A stretch of DNA of 64,000 bases from Leifsonia sp. Root4 (GTDB lineage: Bacteria > Actinomycetota > Actinomycetes > Actinomycetales > Microbacteriaceae), in assembly GCF_001425085.1 (NCBI RefSeq), contig NZ_LMDN01000001.1:1142550-1206549 (forward strand). The letters are read 5' to 3'. Shown piece after piece: positions 10,224 through 62,638 of this stretch; position 1 is the first letter of the stretch; every line of letters begins with the position of its first letter. Position numbers and translations under genes: made by a program. Below the pieces are notes generated by a model. It had not been told where the DNA came from. It saw only the letters and a list, made by a program, of their open reading frames with translations, and made no database searches.

Positions 10224-10441
10224 CGGGCGGCGCGCAGCGCCGCGAAAGGCGGCAGCCCATTCCAAGGCAACCTCCACCACCGCAAGCGATGCTGGTGCGG
10301 TTTCGACAAGCTCAACCAGCGGTGCGGTTTCGACAAGCTCAACCAGCGGTGGTGCGGTTTCGACAAGCTCAACCAGCGGTGGTGCGGTTTCGACAAGCTC
10401 AACCAGCGGTGGTGCGGTTTCGACAGGCTCAGCCAGCGGAA
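10224..10441 (+). repeat. Family-B element plus five tandem family-A repeats
   Basis: 10227-10300 is a family-B element: head hairpin GCGGCGC-gca-GCGCCGC, then GAAAGGCGGCAGCC, CCAAGGCAACCTC and the tail AGCGATGCTGG. It runs directly into five tandem copies of family A starting at 10301, 10328, 10358, 10388 and 10418 (27-, then 30-bp period). The last copy differs (GACAGGCTCAGCC). No gene is present; the open frames crossing it are repeat translations. Confidence 0.85.
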
Positions 10442-12433: not shown

Positions 12434-12658
12434 GCCGGCTGAGCCTGTCGAAATCTGTCGTGCGGCGTGGTTTCGACAAGCTCAACCAGCGGGGACTGTC
12501 CCGTTAATCGAGCTCGTGCGGCGTGGTTTCGACAAGCTCAACCAGCGGGGGTGATTCGCCGGATCCCTTGTGGCCCGCGGAACCGCACCAGCATCGCTTG
12601 CGGTTCTCAAGGTTTCCGTGCGACTGGCTGCCGCCTTCAATAACGCTGGCGCGTTATT
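12434..12658. repeat. Families A and B between convergent gene ends
   Basis: Family-A copies lie at 12442-12457, 12472-12495 and 12531-12553; the last two are part of a ~60-bp duplicated segment with CGTGCGGCGTGG. A reverse-oriented family-B element lies at about 12588-12658: tail CCAGCATCGCTTG, then GGCTGCCGCCTTC, then a head hairpin AATAACGC-tggc-GCGTTATT at 12639-12658. The hairpin's outer arm contains the purF stop codon (12654-12656). Confidence 0.8.
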
Positions 12659-14213
12659 CCTGCCGCCCCGGGTCGCCGATCACGACGGGCATGTTCGTCT
12701 CGAGCACGCTCTCGAACTCGGCATCCGGCCCCGGGTCGCAGCCGTTGGATGCTGCGGGGCGCTCCAGCAGGTTCTTGCCGAGGTGCTGCGACTCTGGCAG
12801 CGGGATCGGGTACTTGCCGGTGAAGCAGGCCGTGCAGAGGCGCTCGCGCGGCTGCTCCGTTGCCTCGATCATGCCGTCTTCCGAGAGGTAGCCGAGCGAG
12901 TCGGCACCGATCGACTGACGGACCTCGTCGATGGCCAGGCCTGTGGCGACGAGCTCTGCCCTGGTGGCGAAGTCGATGCCGTAGAAGCAGGGCCACGTGA
13001 TGGGCGGGCTCGAGATGCGCACGTGCACCTCGGCGGCGCCGGCCTCCCGCAGCATCGACACGAGGGCGCGCTGCGTGTTGCCGCGCACGATCGAGTCGTC
13101 AACGACGATCAGACGCTTGCCCTTGATGACCGCCTTGAGCGGGTTCAACTTGAGCTTGATGCCGCGCTGGCGGATGGTCTGCGACGGCTGGATGAATGTG
13201 CGGCCGACGTAGGAGTTCTTGACGAGCCCCTGACCGAAGGGGATGCCGCTGGCCTGGGCGTAGCCGATGGCGGCCGGCGTTCCGGACTCGGGGGTCGGGA
13301 TGACGAGGTCGGCCTCGACGGGGTGTTCCGCCGCGAGGCGGCGGCCCATCTCGACCCGCGCCTCGTGCACACCGCGACCGGCGATCGTGGTGTCCGGGCG
13401 GGCCAGGTAGACGTACTCGAAGACGCAGCCGGCCGGCTTGGACTCGGCGAAACGCTGGGTGCGCAGGCCGTCCTCGTCGATCGTGATGAGCTCGCCGGGC
13501 TCGACCTCGCGCACGAAGGCGGCGCCGACGATGTCGAGTGCCGCGGTTTCGGATGCCACGACCCAGCCACGGTCGAGGCGACCGAGCACCAGCGGGCGGA
13601 CGCCCTGCGGGTCACGGGCGGCGTAGAGGGTGTGCTCGTCCATGAAGACGAGGCAGTATGCGCCGCGGAGGCGGGGCAGCACCTCGAGGGCGGTCTGCTC
13701 GAGCGTGTGCTCGCGGTCACCCGTCAGCAGCGCCGTGACGACGGCGGTGTCTGTGGTGTTGCCACGACGCAGCTCGCCGTCGGTCTCCGGGTATCGCTCG
13801 TGCACGAGCTCGAGCAGCTCGGCCGTGTTGGTGAGGTTGCCGTTGTGGCCGAGGGCCACGGTGCCGGTGGCGGTGCGCCCGAGAGTCGGCTGCGCGTTCT
13901 GCCAGCTGGAGGCGCCCGTGGTCGAGTAGCGCGTGTGTCCGACGGCGATGTGGCCGGTCAGCGTGTTGAGCGCGGTCTCGTTGAAGACCTGCGACACAAG
14001 GCCCATGTCCTTGTAGATGAGGATCTTGTCGCCATCGCTCGTCGCGATGCCGGCAGACTCCTGGCCGCGGTGCTGCAGCGCGTAGAGGCCGAAGTAGCTG
14101 AGCTTGGCGACTTCCTCGCCCGGCGCCCAGACCCCGAAGACGCCACAGGCATCCTGCGGCCCCTTCTCGCCCTGAAGAAGATCGTGATTGAGAAGTCCGT
14201 CGCCTCTGGCCAA
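12654..14213 (-). CDS. purF: Amidophosphoribosyltransferase
   Basis: A 519-aa enzyme for the first step of purine synthesis (PRPP + glutamine to phosphoribosylamine). It carries a 22-residue propeptide and the catalytic cysteine in QDACGVFGVW (C23), Ntn-glutaminase motifs (LQHRGQESAGIATSD, GHNGNLTN) and the PRPP-binding loop RLIVVDDSIVRGNTQR (about residue 375). Cysteines near the end (CTACFTGKYP) are the type that bind the structural Fe-S cluster in Bacillus-like PurF. The start is a TTG at 14213, seven bases after AAGGGG, giving the usual propeptide length. It is 11 bp downstream of a small membrane-protein gene, so probably co-transcribed with it. Its stop lies inside a family-B hairpin. 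Confidence 0.95.
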   Translation of the reverse strand: MARGDGLLNHDLLQGEKGPQDACGVFGVWAPGEEVAKLSYFGLYALQHRGQESAGIATSDGDKILIYKDMGLVSQVFNETALNTLTGHIAVGHTRYSTTGASSWQNAQPTLGRTATGTVALGHNGNLTNTAELLELVHERYPETDGELRRGNTTDTAVVTALLTGDREHTLEQTALEVLPRLRGAYCLVFMDEHTLYAARDPQGVRPLVLGRLDRGWVVASETAALDIVGAAFVREVEPGELITIDEDGLRTQRFAESKPAGCVFEYVYLARPDTTIAGRGVHEARVEMGRRLAAEHPVEADLVIPTPESGTPAAIGYAQASGIPFGQGLVKNSYVGRTFIQPSQTIRQRGIKLKLNPLKAVIKGKRLIVVDDSIVRGNTQRALVSMLREAGAAEVHVRISSPPITWPCFYGIDFATRAELVATGLAIDEVRQSIGADSLGYLSEDGMIEATEQPRERLCTACFTGKYPIPLPESQHLGKNLLERPAASNGCDPGPDAEFESVLETNMPVVIGDPGRQE

Positions 14214-20963: not shown

Positions 20964-22156
20964 CGATCAGCGAGACGCGCAGCGTCGCGAAAGGCGGCAG
21001 CCCAAACCAAGGAAACCTGCCCACCGAGAGCGATGCTGGCCGGGTTTCGACCCTTCGACAGGCTCAGGGCAGGCCAAGCTCAACCAGCGGGCTCCCGCTG
21101 ATTGAGCCTGTCGAAATCAAGCGGCTCCGTCGCAGGCGTGCTGTGCTGTTCGGCGCGCTCAGCGTCGCGCTCGTGCTCGTCTGTCTCGTCTCGGCCGGCA
21201 GCGGCCAGCTCACGATCCCGCCGAGCGAGGTCGTCGGCTCCGTGCTCCGGGCGCTCGGCCTCGACGTCGGCCCGGCCGCCAACCCCACCGGCGATGTCGC
21301 CCTCTGGACGATCCGCTTCCCGCGCATCGTGCTCGCACTGCTGATCGGCGCTGCCCTGGCGGCATCCGGCACCCTCATGCAGGCCGTGTTCTCGAACCCA
21401 CTGGCCGAGCCGAGCGTCGTCGGTGTCTCCTCCGGCGCGGCACTCGGCGCGGCCACCGCCATCGTCTTCGGCTGGACCTTCCTCGGCGAGTGGAGCGTGG
21501 CCCTGGCCGCCTTCATCGCCGGCCTGGCGACGACGCTCTTCGTCTACTTCGCCAGCCGCACACGCGGCAAGACCGAGGTCGTCACCCTCGTGCTCACCGG
21601 CATCGCGATCAACGCCTTCGCCGGCGCCGCACTGGCCTTGCTCACCTTCCTCGGCGACAGCGCATCGCGGGAGCAGATCATCTTCTGGCAGCTCGGCAGC
21701 CTGAACGGTGCGCGCTGGCAGCAGGTCGCGATCATCGCGCCACTCGTGCTGATCGGTCTGATCGTCGCGTTCAGCCTCGCCCGCACCCTCGACCTGTTCT
21801 CGCTCGGCGAGCGCGGGGCACGCCACCTCGGCGTCAACGTCGAGCTCGTGCGCATCGTCGTGATCGTCGTCGTGGCCGTTCTGGTCTCCGCCGCCGTCGC
21901 CTTCGCCGGCATCATCGCCTTCGTCGGCCTCGTCGTTCCCCACCTCATGCGCATGGTGCTCGGCCCGGCCCACCGCCCGCTGCTGATCGCGAGCGTACTC
22001 GGCGGCGCGCTGCTCATGGCCAGCGCCGACCTCGTCGCGCGCACCGCCGTGCCGATGGCCGATCTGCCCATCGGCATGCTCACCTCGCTCGTCGGCGGGC
22101 CGTTCTTCTTCTGGCTGCTCCGTCGCACGCGCCGCCGCTCTGGAGGCTGGGGATGA
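20960..22156 (+). CDS. hmuU: Heme ABC transporter permease with repeat-encoded N-terminus
   Basis: A 398-aa FecCD-type permease. From residue ~55 it has the usual nine to ten membrane helices with RFPRIVLALLIGAALAASGTLMQAVFSNPLAEPSVVGVSSGAALGA, GSLNGARW and FVGLVVPHLMRMVLGP. Residues 1-54 (from SETRSVAKGGSPNQGN to GLPLIEPVEIK) are not family sequence: they are the translation of a family-B element followed by family-A repeats. The ATG at 20960 overlaps the hmuT stop (ATGA) and is the only well-coupled start. The next in-frame candidate, GTG 21143, would delete the basic RLRRRR segment before helix 1. So the repeat appears to be inside the gene and translated. Confidence 0.9.
   Translation: MTISETRSVAKGGSPNQGNLPTESDAGRVSTLRQAQGRPSSTSGLPLIEPVEIKRLRRRRAVLFGALSVALVLVCLVSAGSGQLTIPPSEVVGSVLRALGLDVGPAANPTGDVALWTIRFPRIVLALLIGAALAASGTLMQAVFSNPLAEPSVVGVSSGAALGAATAIVFGWTFLGEWSVALAAFIAGLATTLFVYFASRTRGKTEVVTLVLTGIAINAFAGAALALLTFLGDSASREQIIFWQLGSLNGARWQQVAIIAPLVLIGLIVAFSLARTLDLFSLGERGARHLGVNVELVRIVVIVVVAVLVSAAVAFAGIIAFVGLVVPHLMRMVLGPAHRPLLIASVLGGALLMASADLVARTAVPMADLPIGMLTSLVGGPFFFWLLRRTRRRSGGWG
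20966..21121 (+). repeat. Family-B and family-A repeats inside hmuU coding sequence
   Basis: Head hairpin GACGC-gca-GCGTC at 20971-20983, then GAAAGGCGGCAGCC, CCAAGGAAACCTG and GAGCGATGCTGGCCGG. Family-A units in both orientations follow, at 21045-21080 and 21099-21118. The frame stays open through the whole block. Confidence 0.85.
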
Positions 22157-22986: not shown

Positions 22987-23186
22987 CGCCGCGCACTCCG
23001 CTTGCTCGAGAGACCCCGCTTGCTCGAGACTCCGCTGGTCGAGTAGGCCGTCCACGGCCGTATCGAGACCGAGGCCCGCGCGAAATCGCAGCAGCATCGG
23101 TGACGGTTCTTGAGGCTGCCAAGGAGTGGGCTGCCGCCTTTCGCGACGCTGCGCCTCGCGCTACTCAACCAGCGGAATGGCGGCTG
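22987..23186. repeat. Families D and B downstream of hmuV
   Basis: 23037-23072 is a family-D hairpin (TCGAGTAGGCCG...CGGCCGTATCGAGACC), also at 55556, 55829 and 62276. 23090-23160 is a reverse-oriented family-B element with head arms CGCGAGGC/GCGTCGCG (one mismatch). No gene is supported here. Confidence 0.75.
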
Positions 23187-23566: not shown

Positions 23567-23858
23567 GCGGTTTCGACAGGCTCAACCAGCGCGGCGCGCA
23601 GCGTCGCGAAAGGCGGCAGCCCACACCAAGGAAACCTCGTGACGGAGAGCGATGCTGGCCGGGTTTCGACAGGCTCAACCAGCGCGGCGCGCAGCGTCGC
23701 GAAAGGCGGCAGCCCCCACCAAGGAAGCCTCGTGGCGGAGAGCGATGCTGGCCGGGTTTCGACAGGCTCAACCAGCGGGGTGGGGCTCAACCAGCGGAGC
23801 GGGGCTCAACCGGCGGGGCCCGGGGCCGGGACCCCCGTTGATTGAGCCTGTCGAAATC
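23567..23858 (+). repeat. Tandem B-A repeat block before purD
   Basis: Two consecutive ~102-bp units (about 23570-23671 and 23672-23772) each consist of family A followed by a complete family-B element (head CGCGGCGC-gca-GCGTCGCG, tail GAGCGATGCTGGCCGG). More A copies lie at 23757-23780 and, inverted, at 23841-23857. No gene is present. The block sits between the SCP2-like gene and purD, which diverge, so any promoters must lie at its edges. Confidence 0.85.
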
Positions 23859-33739: not shown

Positions 33740-33832
33740 GCTTGTCGAAACCGAGCCAGCAGCGGTCGCTGTTCCTGAGTTTGCCTGGCTGAAGGCTGCC
33801 GCCTTTCGCGACGCTGCGCGTCCCGCACGCAC
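33735..33832 (-). repeat. Families A and B after kynU
   Basis: GGCTGAGCTTGTCGAAA (33733-33749) is an A variant containing the kynU stop. A reverse family-B element follows: tail near 33756-33772, GGCTGCCGCC at about 33794-33803, head CGCGACGC-tgc-GCGTCCCG (one mismatch) at about 33807-33825. Confidence 0.7.
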
Positions 33833-43662: not shown

Positions 43663-43769
43663 GGATGTGACCTTTCAGGATTCCGGCTGGTGCGAATGCT
43701 GTGACGGTGCCGGCGGACATCGATCACGCTAAGGAGCCAGAACCAACCCACGGTCGCTCATCGGTTACG

Positions 43770-43870
43770 CGCGAGTGAACGCGATGCGAAGCATTGCGTT
43801 CACTCGCGAAAGGCGGCAGCCCACAATCAGGCAATCCCGGGTACCGCGACCGATGCTGGTGCGGTTTACG
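43770..43870 (+). repeat. Family-B element with an 18-bp head hairpin
   Basis: Head arms 43770-43787 (CGCGAGTGAACGCGATGC) and 43791-43808 pair with one wobble around a gaa loop, much longer than in other copies and with different sequence. The usual AAAGGCGGCAGCC, AATCAGGCAATCC and GACCGATGCTGG follow. No gene is supported in 43663-43884. The phnD promoter must lie between 43663 and this element. Confidence 0.8.
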
Positions 43871-45849: not shown

Positions 45850-45935
45850 TGTACGACACCGACAAGCATCGGTCACTGGTTCGCGGGCTTCCTTGGACAG
45901 GGCTGCCGCCTTTCGCGACGCTTCGCGTCGCGCCG
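45850..45935 (-). repeat. Family-B element in the purS / exporter intergenic region
   Basis: Reverse orientation: tail AAGCATCGGTC at about 45867, GGGCTGCCGCCTTT at about 45900-45913, head CGCGACGC-ttc-GCGTCGCG (perfect 8 bp) at about 45914-45932. The purS -10 box follows at 45944, so the head would lie over its -35 region. Confidence 0.75.
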
Positions 45936-47017: not shown

Positions 47018-47596
47018 CCGGCCCAGCTCCGGCATCCGTCGGCACCGCCGGCGTGTGCGCTCGGCCGGTGTTTCGGTCGACACTCCGTAGTTGCGGGCGA
47101 TGGATGCGGCGCGCCACCCGAAACTCCGGCCGAGCGCGCATCGTGTTGGCGCTTCCGGGCAGGGCAACCCCGCTGGCTCGAGGGAGCAGCCGAGGAACGG
47201 GGCCGCCCCCGAAGCCCTGACACCGCCAGGAACAGATGCCCGAGCGACGGTTTCACGCATCCGCTCAGGGCTTCGCGGGCGTCGCTGCTCCTTCGTCGCT
47301 GCGCCGCTCGCTCAAGCCATCGTGCAGAGAGACGCCGAGCGGCCGGAATCGGCGCGAAGAAGGTCGAGCGGCCGGCATCCGCACGCTGGCTCGAGGGAGC
47401 AGCCGAGGAACGAGGCCGCGCCCGAAGCCCTGACACCGCCAGACACGGATGGCGAAGCGAGGGTTCACGCATCCGCTCAGGGCTTCGCGGGCGTCGCTGC
47501 TCCTTCGTCGCTGCGCCGCTCGCTCAAGCCATCGTGCAGAGAGACGCCGCTCGCTCGAGCCCAACGTGCAGGAAGCCGGCGTAGCGCGGGGCGTGA
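47018..47596. repeat. Family-C repeat region with a ~212-bp tandem duplication
   Basis: No gene is supported. CTGGCTCGAGGGAGCAGCCGAGG begins at 47173 and again at 47386, and CGCATCCGCTCAGGGCTTCGCGG at 47256 and 47468, a 212-213-bp period. Each unit contains both family-C halves in opposite orientation (GCTCGAGGGAGCAGCC and GGCTTCGCGGGCGTCGCTGC). Open frames on both strands here are repeat translations. Confidence 0.8.
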
Positions 47597-52454: not shown

Positions 52455-52530
52455 CCAGAGCCAGCACCGTGCGCAGATGTCGAGGTTGCCTAGGTGATGG
52501 CCGCCGACTTTCGCGACGCTGCGCGTCGCG
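52455..52530 (-). repeat. Family-B element abutting the cupredoxin stop codon
   Basis: Head CGCGACGC-tgc-GCGTCGCG (perfect 8 bp) at about 52512-52530, directly next to the TAG stop at 52531-52533 of the minus-strand gene. GCCGCCGACTTT and a degenerate tail (52463-52490) follow. Confidence 0.75.
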
Positions 52531-55492: not shown

Positions 55493-55945
55493 CCTCGCTG
55501 ATTGAGCACGTCGAACCCCTCGCTGGTTGAGCCTGTCGAAACCCTGCCGGCACGTTGGTCGAGTAGGCCGCCCGCGGCCGTCTCGAGACCCGGGCGACCC
55601 GATCCGATCAGACGCTCAGGGCTTCGGGGGCGGCCTCGTTCCTCGGCTGCTCCCTCGAGCCAGCGTGAGGATGCACGACGCTCGCAACCCAGCGTGAAGA
55701 TGCACGACGCTCGCAACCCAGCGTGGGAACTCACGCTGGCTCGAGCGAGCGGCGCCGCGACGAAGGAGCAGCGACGCACGCGAAGCCCTGAGCGGATCCG
55801 CCGACACTGGGGCGTGAGATCCATGCTGGTCGAGTAGGCGCGCTAGCGCCGTATCGAGACCCTCGCACATGCGAAGACTCCAGCCCGCGAGGTCTCGATA
55901 CGCTCGTTCCTCGCTACTCGACCAGCAAAACTGTCCTGCCTCTTG
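55493..55945. repeat. Repeat region, families A, C and D
   Basis: No gene in about 480 bases. Family A lies at 55498-55545; family D (TCGAGTAGGCCG...CGGCCGTCTCGAGACC) at 55556-55592 and, as a longer inverted pair, at 55829-55925. Family C appears in both orientations at 55613-55670 and 55735-55795. A short direct repeat (GATGCACGACGCTCGCAACCC) occurs twice near 55672-55722. Confidence 0.8.
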
Positions 55946-62169: not shown

Positions 62170-62638
62170 CAGCGTGGGTTTCGACAAGCTCAACCAACGG
62201 AAGACTGCCTGCTGGTTGAGTAGCGAGGAACGAGCGTATCGAAACCTCACGGACCGCAGCCGTCGCACGGACTTCGGTCTCGATACGGCCGTAGACGGCC
62301 TACTCGACCAGCGTGGAGGGTTTCGACAGGCTCAACCAACGGGGGGTCTCGGAACAGCTTGCCGGTTGAGTAGCGAGGAACGAGCGTATCGAAACCTCAC
62401 GGGCTGGAGCGTTCGCACGGACATCGGTCTCGATACGGCCGTAGACGGCCTACTCGACCAGCGTGGAGGGTTTCGACAGGCTCAACCAGCGCGGCGCGCA
62501 GCGTCGCGAAAGGCGGCAGCCCAATCCAAGGCAAACTCAGGATCCGCGACCGATGCTGGCAGGGTTTCGACAGGCGCGACCAGCGGGGGCGGAGGGGTTT
62601 CGACAGGCTCAACCGACGCGGCGCGCAGCGGAGCGGTG
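62170..62638. repeat. Repeat region, families A, B and D
   Basis: No gene in about 470 bases. Family A occurs at about 62178-62200, 62327-62345, 62469-62490, 62563-62580 (degenerate) and 62597-62615. A ~150-bp unit containing family D (GAGTAGCGAGGAACGAGCGTATCGAAACC and TCGATACGGCCGTAGACGGCCTACTCGACC) is present twice (about 62212-62345 and 62364-62490). A complete family-B element (head CGCGGCGC-gca-GCGTCGCG, tail CGACCGATGCTGGC) lies at 62490-62562, and a truncated head at 62618. Confidence 0.8.

Follow-up and report, generated by a model that had tools for sequence, protein, structure and literature searches.

A REP-like repeat of Microterricola whose covarying head hairpin is apparently in part remade from neighbouring sequence

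What keeps a short genomic repeat folded when the bases that fold it differ from copy to copy? The question is raised by an element at position 43770 of the window, the stretch of 64,000 nucleotides analysed here (G000:C1:1142550-1206549), which belongs to a genome of 3.87 Mb in 7 contigs (G000). An initial annotation had described a family of such elements with head hairpins in which both arms change together, and had taken the paired changes as a sign of selection on base pairing. Four genomes of the same genus (G001 to G004) served for comparison; the genus of G000 is taken as Microterricola through the same-genus label. We find that the element is a new variety of REP-like repeat, that it is real and covarying, and that its hairpin is partly remade from its neighbours; as judged from the sequences, it was apparently mobile in the past and is apparently kept by its host.

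The element is about 75-80 bp long and consists, in order, of a GC dinucleotide, the head hairpin, the core GAAAGGCGGCAGCC and two shorter conserved blocks (Table 1). In aligned copies the hairpin is followed by GAAAGG, and a tail of about 50 nt after the head is conserved. The 18-bp stem annotated at 43770 was recovered (43770-43808, triloop GAA). One of its pairs is G.T, and its right arm ends on the first G of the core. The 11 copies that had been listed for the window were recovered as well, 9 with an exact core and 2 (12626r and 52499r) with 2 core mismatches. The copy listed at 23692 starts earlier, its core lying at 23701 and its 7-bp head beginning near 23684. The sequence CCAAGGnAACC did not hold as a fixed block, as aligned copies keep only about AGGnAA of it. 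With up to 3 mismatches allowed, the 14-mer core matched the window 29 times; 100 shuffles gave 13.7 matches on average and 24 at most, so that many of the 3-mismatch matches are due to chance. Other abundant short repeats, among them TTTCGACARGCTCAACC with 78 exact copies in G003, are frequent neighbours of the element, giving mosaics; they lie in the window at about 47171-47551 and 55526-55930 and are found throughout the genus, with inverted blocks of some 100-380 bp in the match lists.

Table 1. Parts of the element at 43770 and copies of the element in the window.
Feature	Position	Strand	Remarks
Long head hairpin, 18-bp stem, triloop GAA	43770..43808	+	left arm 43770-43787, loop 43788-43790, right arm 43791-43808
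Invariant core GAAAGGCGGCAGCC	43808..43821	+	14-mer, common to copies
Tail block B (CAGGCAATC; consensus ~AGGnAAnC)	43828..43836	+	aligned copies
Tail block C CGATGCTGG	43851..43859	+	close to right end of element
Copy, core 10244	10227..10298	+	7-bp head GCGGCGC/GCGCCGC; G001 and G002 sites empty
Copy, core 12626-12639, 2 mismatches	12588..12660	-	head AATAACGC/GCGTTATT; host AATA within left arm
Copy, core 20989	20972..21043	+	orthologous site without copy in G001, G002, G003
Copy, core 23129-23142	23091..23159	-	core match
Copy, core 23608	23591..23662	+	first member of 93-bp tandem pair
Copy, core 23701	23684..23755	+	second member of 93-bp tandem pair
Copy, core 33794-33807	33756..33824	-	orthologous G003 site without copy
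Copy, core 45901-45914	45863..45931	-	site occupied in G003; without copy in G001, G002, G004
Copy, core 52499-52512, 2 mismatches	52461..52529	-	core match
Copy, core 62508	62491..62562	+	core match

The exact core occurs 64 times in G000 (35 forward, 29 reverse), where the reversed pattern used as a control has 0 matches, and 20, 17, 54 and 17 times in the four same-genus genomes. One of the other 35 genomes searched had a single match, which is about background (the reversed pattern matches in three genomes). For a covariance model, 7 odd-headed copies were left out of the 64 in G000; the model, made from the remaining 57, matched 28 times in G001, 25 in G002, 24 in G004 and 76 in G003 at E <= 0.001. 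Applied to 299 genomes of the family (E <= 1e-4, stricter filters), it matched 18, of which 5 belong to the genus and 13 to 8 other genera of Microbacteriaceae; outside the genus they are few per genome and keep the core and the AGGnAA block, while the last block is different. A scan of a genome collection with a strict pattern returned one stretch, NZ_MPZN01000030.1 of Microterricola pindariensis. The element is amplified within Microterricola, and elsewhere in the Microbacteriaceae it is sparse. Compound arrangements were also seen: head and core repeated three times with a 35-bp period and no tail between (L229 1360-1480, the same site as L213, in G237), and tandem tail units with a reduced or absent head (L217 at about 1529-1680 of the minus strand, with a 69-bp period, and the MFDGAA* site in G004, L191). 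At L207 (about 1450-1700, genus g3, G104), a copy is flanked on one side by a tRNA gene and on the other by a partial direct duplicate of that gene's 3' end.

The view that the head is conserved as structure and not as sequence was borne out when arm compensation was followed through a structural alignment of the copies. In the 8-bp head helix of 57 copies, 97.6% of cells were paired and 5 of the 8 pairs showed double changes; double-change cells numbered 25 against 3.6 in shuffles (57 of 64 copies), with slid partners far lower. Among 151 non-redundant copies, the pairing of each copy's own arms exceeded that of swapped arms with z = 22, and 0 of 2000 swaps scored as high. Near-identical tails were removed before the pairing, arm-length and context counts, which kept 151 of 185 and 147 of 181 copies. 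Of 131 standard heads, 124 have a GNA loop (GCA 69, GAA 42, GTA 9, GGA 4), and in 123 the arm is preceded by GC. Hairpins of the type d(GCGNAGC) are unusually stable as DNA.

The length of the right arm, counted from loop to core, is quantised at 7 nt or 17-20 nt. It is 7 nt in 125 of the 151 copies, 17 nt in 3, 19 nt in 4 and 20 nt in 2, the rest having arms of 12-13 nt (2) or 5-6 nt (4) or no recognised arm (11). Shuffled upstream controls mostly had no arm and gave 12-13 nt arms in 18 of 3020 cases, and stems of 10-11 pairs occur in 4 of 191 copies. At 26 loci of other genera the arm is 7 nt in 18, 17 nt in 1, 8 nt in 1 and absent in 4; it is 19 nt in two, which are one site fetched twice. 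Long stems exceed short ones by 10-13 bp, which would correspond to about one helical turn. Some of the long heads (19-20 bp) contain A/T tracts. In a double-hairpin form, a second 7-bp hairpin with a GNA or GNNA loop lies inside the core (copies 36/114, 92 and 138); this form is present in two genera (the second represented by L221).

The further claim that paired changes by themselves reveal selection on base pairing is not supported in that form. At several orthologous sites whole stretches of 8-19 nt in the right arm repeat the left host flank in inverted form, as template switching would produce, and at about seven sites (43808, 12626 and copies 43, 73, 116, 160 and 198) the left arm matches host sequence that a sister has without the element, and the right arm is its inverse. 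The gene end and stop GCAAGTAG at copy 73 (G003) are also present in G000 and G002, which have no element there, and its right arm ends in CCACTTGC. Similarly, the last codons and stop GCGCGCGGATAA at copy 43 (L039) match the coding end at the empty G002 site and have their exact inverse in the right arm. Copy 116 (G003) has GCGTAG against GCATAG in G001 and G004, and copy 198 (G001) has the coding sequence CGCGAGGC against CGCGAAGC in G003. The arm of copy 160 (G002) starts inside a tRNA-Gln gene, at its 3' end; G000 and G003 carry this gene without the element. At site 12626, the host AATA is found in G001, which has no element there, and G002 has a standard head at this site.

Arms at shared sites were also compared between species. 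At site 43808 the tail is common to G000 and G003, and the basal 10 bp of the stem are wholly different, each paired with its own left flank (own pairs 10 and 10; swapped 4 and 6). The G000 stem at the LKGA* site was remade relative to the other four genomes (own 9 pairs; swapped 4-5). At the MFDGAA* site in 5 species, own pairs numbered 9, 10, 10, 9 and 6 of 10 against 6-10 for swapped arms; own arms were no better than swapped ones in 2 of the 5 species and worse in G000, which is poorly paired. That right arms track codon changes at this site is only partly borne out, and the GARG* site was uninformative on own versus swapped pairing. Insertion of the tail beside a pre-existing hairpin was rejected, as the empty sister sites of copies 93, 176 and 179 have no such hairpin; standard heads therefore arrive with the element. 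A host-derived arm at copy 184 was likewise rejected, the G004 ortholog showing that the arm was carried along.

According to a study of RNA genes, template switching makes and mends perfect stems in one step and produces multi-base compensatory changes (PMC8794818). The element resembles these quasipalindrome or template-switch mutations in that perfect stems and multi-base compensatory changes would appear in one step by copying of the opposite arm; it differs from the RNA genes of that study in being a repeated intergenic element with a preferred stem length, and what its arms would copy is where coding genes, or in one case a tRNA gene, end (PMC8794818). Whole-arm copying with a short return homology, the GC at the foot, would fit template switching. 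The patterns suggest such a process, against which the MFDGAA* site counts. Since template switching alone leaves the preferred arm length unexplained, we infer that the stem is also under selection.

Occupied and empty sites, which had been proposed as a source of evidence, were found in the sister genomes. A sister site could be aligned cleanly for 68 copies; for 54 of these one or more sisters have the element at the site, and for 32 one or more lack it. These counts are not frequencies, given that the stretches were fetched around known copies, and an empty site may reflect either gain or loss. By eye, copy 176 and its empty G002 counterpart, the clearest single pair of this kind, show no target-site duplication. 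Where copies are retained, the core is conserved in place. In 10 ortholog pairs of G000 and G003, identity was 139/140 in the core, 121/140 in the head arms, 28/30 in block B and 62/70 in block C, compared with 271/381 in spacers, 166/230 in the left flank and 117/229 in the right flank; in 9 pairs of G001 and G004 it was 123/126 in the core and 302/345 in spacers. These counts leave out 3 of 13 G000-G003 groups (4, 5 and 8) and 2 of 11 G001-G004 groups (20 and 21), and core identity is biased upward, as copies were found through the core; yet a core that changed as freely as the spacers would seldom have been picked up. The fixed stem length and the conservation of the core in place suggest, at the level of sequence, a function at each site.

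Genes were called with a codon-usage gene caller and context was counted on 194 of 219 copies, those with 2-mismatch cores being dropped; 185 of the 194 copies, from five genomes, are intergenic. The 147 non-redundant copies whose neighbours on both sides are known comprise 64 in convergent and 18 in divergent regions, 29 in tandem sense and 36 in tandem antisense position, and the convergent to divergent ratio of 64:18 contrasts with a background of 178:247 (Fisher P 1.3e-9). In 60 of 93 cases a head follows a same-strand stop codon at a distance of at most 30 nt, against 27.7 expected under uniform placement; the other three combinations of ends show no excess (head-start 14/54, 13.8 expected; tail-stop 30/100, 30.8; tail-start 3/47, 10.6). 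Of these 60 stop-adjacent heads, 14 share their first base with the stop and 7 have the stop in the loop (GTA plus G), and in these cases the element supplies the whole or part of the stop codon.

In several respects the element is similar to REP and REPIN elements, which are served by RAYT (TnpAREP): these are short high-copy palindromes with a conserved hairpin, mostly intergenic and depleted upstream of genes, and the element matches them with 64 exact copies and its 185 of 194 intergenic positions. REPIN and TnpAREP are reportedly the topics of earlier papers. Unlike in the REP/RAYT system, the Y1/RAYT transposase (Y1_Tnp, PF01797) was found in 0 of the 5 genus genomes, with matches in 5 of 14 control genomes, and a GTAG-type tag at the hairpin foot is not general (TAGC in 22/127 copies, 14/47 of the stop-adjacent and 8/80 of the others). 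The element further differs in its long conserved tail after the hairpin and in arms remade from host flank. Mobilisation by RAYT/IS200 was accordingly rejected, as was a reverse transcriptase common to the genus, RVT_1 being found in 1 of the 5 genomes; this is G000, where it lies at G000:C1:443738-444373 (L237). The CGTC-tagged palindromic repeats also lack a dedicated transposase; they are placed in five phyla, Actinobacteria not among them, and the word actinobacteria is absent from the main text of the survey of GTAG and CGTC repeats (PMC3733652). Their short tail CCA sets them apart from the anatomy of the element (PMC3733652). A single 111-base query, run in distant mode, matched nothing in the phage collection or in the plasmid collection, and one pattern matched nothing in viral contigs; none of the top matches listed from one open-access library describes the repeat.

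The reading that we prefer, and to which we attach about as much belief as doubt, is that of a REP-like DNA element, formerly mobile and without RAYT, whose stem is kept by template switching together with selection and which serves as punctuation at gene ends. The element would have spread in the past through some machinery and would now reside mainly behind stop codons; template switching would keep the stem perfect, one arm serving as the template for the other, and selection would retain stems of the right length. Head and core would be read, probably as DNA by a putative protein or as a hairpin at the 3' end of the transcript, and such reading would constitute the punctuation, as a putative terminator or barrier. 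The initial suggestion of a non-autonomous mobile element or DNA cruciform is supported; the absence of a mobilising enzyme (Y1 0/5, RVT_1 1/5) and of a clear target-site duplication speaks against the preferred reading. The gene-end function is suggested by position. Intrinsic terminators, too, stand right behind stop codons, and the A/T tracts of the 19-20 bp heads recall them; against a terminator role, the 7-bp heads of aligned copies are not followed by a T-run, the conserved 50-nt tail follows the hairpin, and antisense copies between tandem genes are as common as sense ones. Host-derived arms could also originate at insertion itself, a variant that we consider distinctly improbable. An incoming strand ending in GC beside the core would anneal at a host GC near the 3' end of a gene, copy the host over 7-20 nt (last codons, stop codon or tRNA end) and then turn round, so that each such insertion would make its own hairpin from the host; arms would be 7 or 17-20 nt long because loop and core must face the same side of the helix for the machinery or the reader, and most standard heads would be carried-over copies.

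The strong covariation of the head raises the alternative of a cis-acting or small structured RNA, such as a 3'-UTR RNA, with stepwise compensatory changes in a helix under RNA selection. The heads adjoining same-strand stops (60/93) and the terminator-like A/T tracts of long heads would agree with this, as would the weak support for a short AGG/CCT pairing within the tail (z 2.6; 8/2000 swaps as high) and, in the earlier alignment of 57 copies, 8 G.U cells against 2 A.C cells. This excess is gone in 62 distinct heads, where mismatches are 10 G.T and 9 A.C and thus favour neither strand; the other tail pairings tested reached z 0.4 to 2.2 (P3 z 0.4 and 1.9), copies between tandem genes show no sense preference, and whole arms were replaced. 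Rfam gave 0 matches in the whole window at the gathering cut-off, in line with the statement that no named family matches, and at E up to 5 the 10 loci searched gave a tRNA and weak sub-cut-off matches, none over the elements taken as real. Of the structured repeat originally proposed the covarying head stands (z 22) and the tail shows weak covariation at most (best z 2.6), and we regard the 3'-UTR or small RNA as weakened and unlikely. A purely selfish element of the MITE or REP kind, its conservation due to mobility alone and its place behind genes to tolerance, appears unlikely to a similar degree: it would account for presence and absence between sisters, tandem duplicates, 17-64 copies per genome within one genus and depletion in divergent regions, whereas a core conserved in place while spacers and flanks diverge, together with the exact arm length, suggests function at the site, and no transposase candidate was found. 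Most improbable of all is a set of binding sites for a chromosome-organising protein, as for Noc or SlmA. Its appeal lies in the scarcity of sites in the terminal 30% of the replichore (origin = dnaA), with 3/61 in G003, 2/24 in G001 and 2/23 in G002 (18.3, 7.2 and 6.9 expected), or 7/108 against 32.4 pooled, at a post-hoc cut that was picked after the gap was seen and with gene content uncontrolled. KS p values were 0.0006, 0.054 and 0.147, respectively, against 0.37 for the unrelated control repeat A, which leans in the same direction in G003 (12/59 against 17.7 expected, P 0.066); core genes near the origin could explain the scarcity, a hairpin in fixed orientation behind stops would be unexpected for such sites, and no protein is known.

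Microterricola genomes carry dozens of copies, mostly just behind genes, with a hairpin that is sometimes apparently built by copying the end of the neighbouring gene backwards. Covariation is usually taken as proof of RNA selection and may here stem largely from arm-to-arm copying, and the combination of occupied and empty sites offers a way to tell the two apart. The element would represent a REP-like family that has no RAYT and is constrained in the length of its hairpin; its phylum is not mentioned in the main text of the REP survey (PMC3733652). Should host-templated heads arise at insertion, they would, if this is true, point to a new insertion mechanism.
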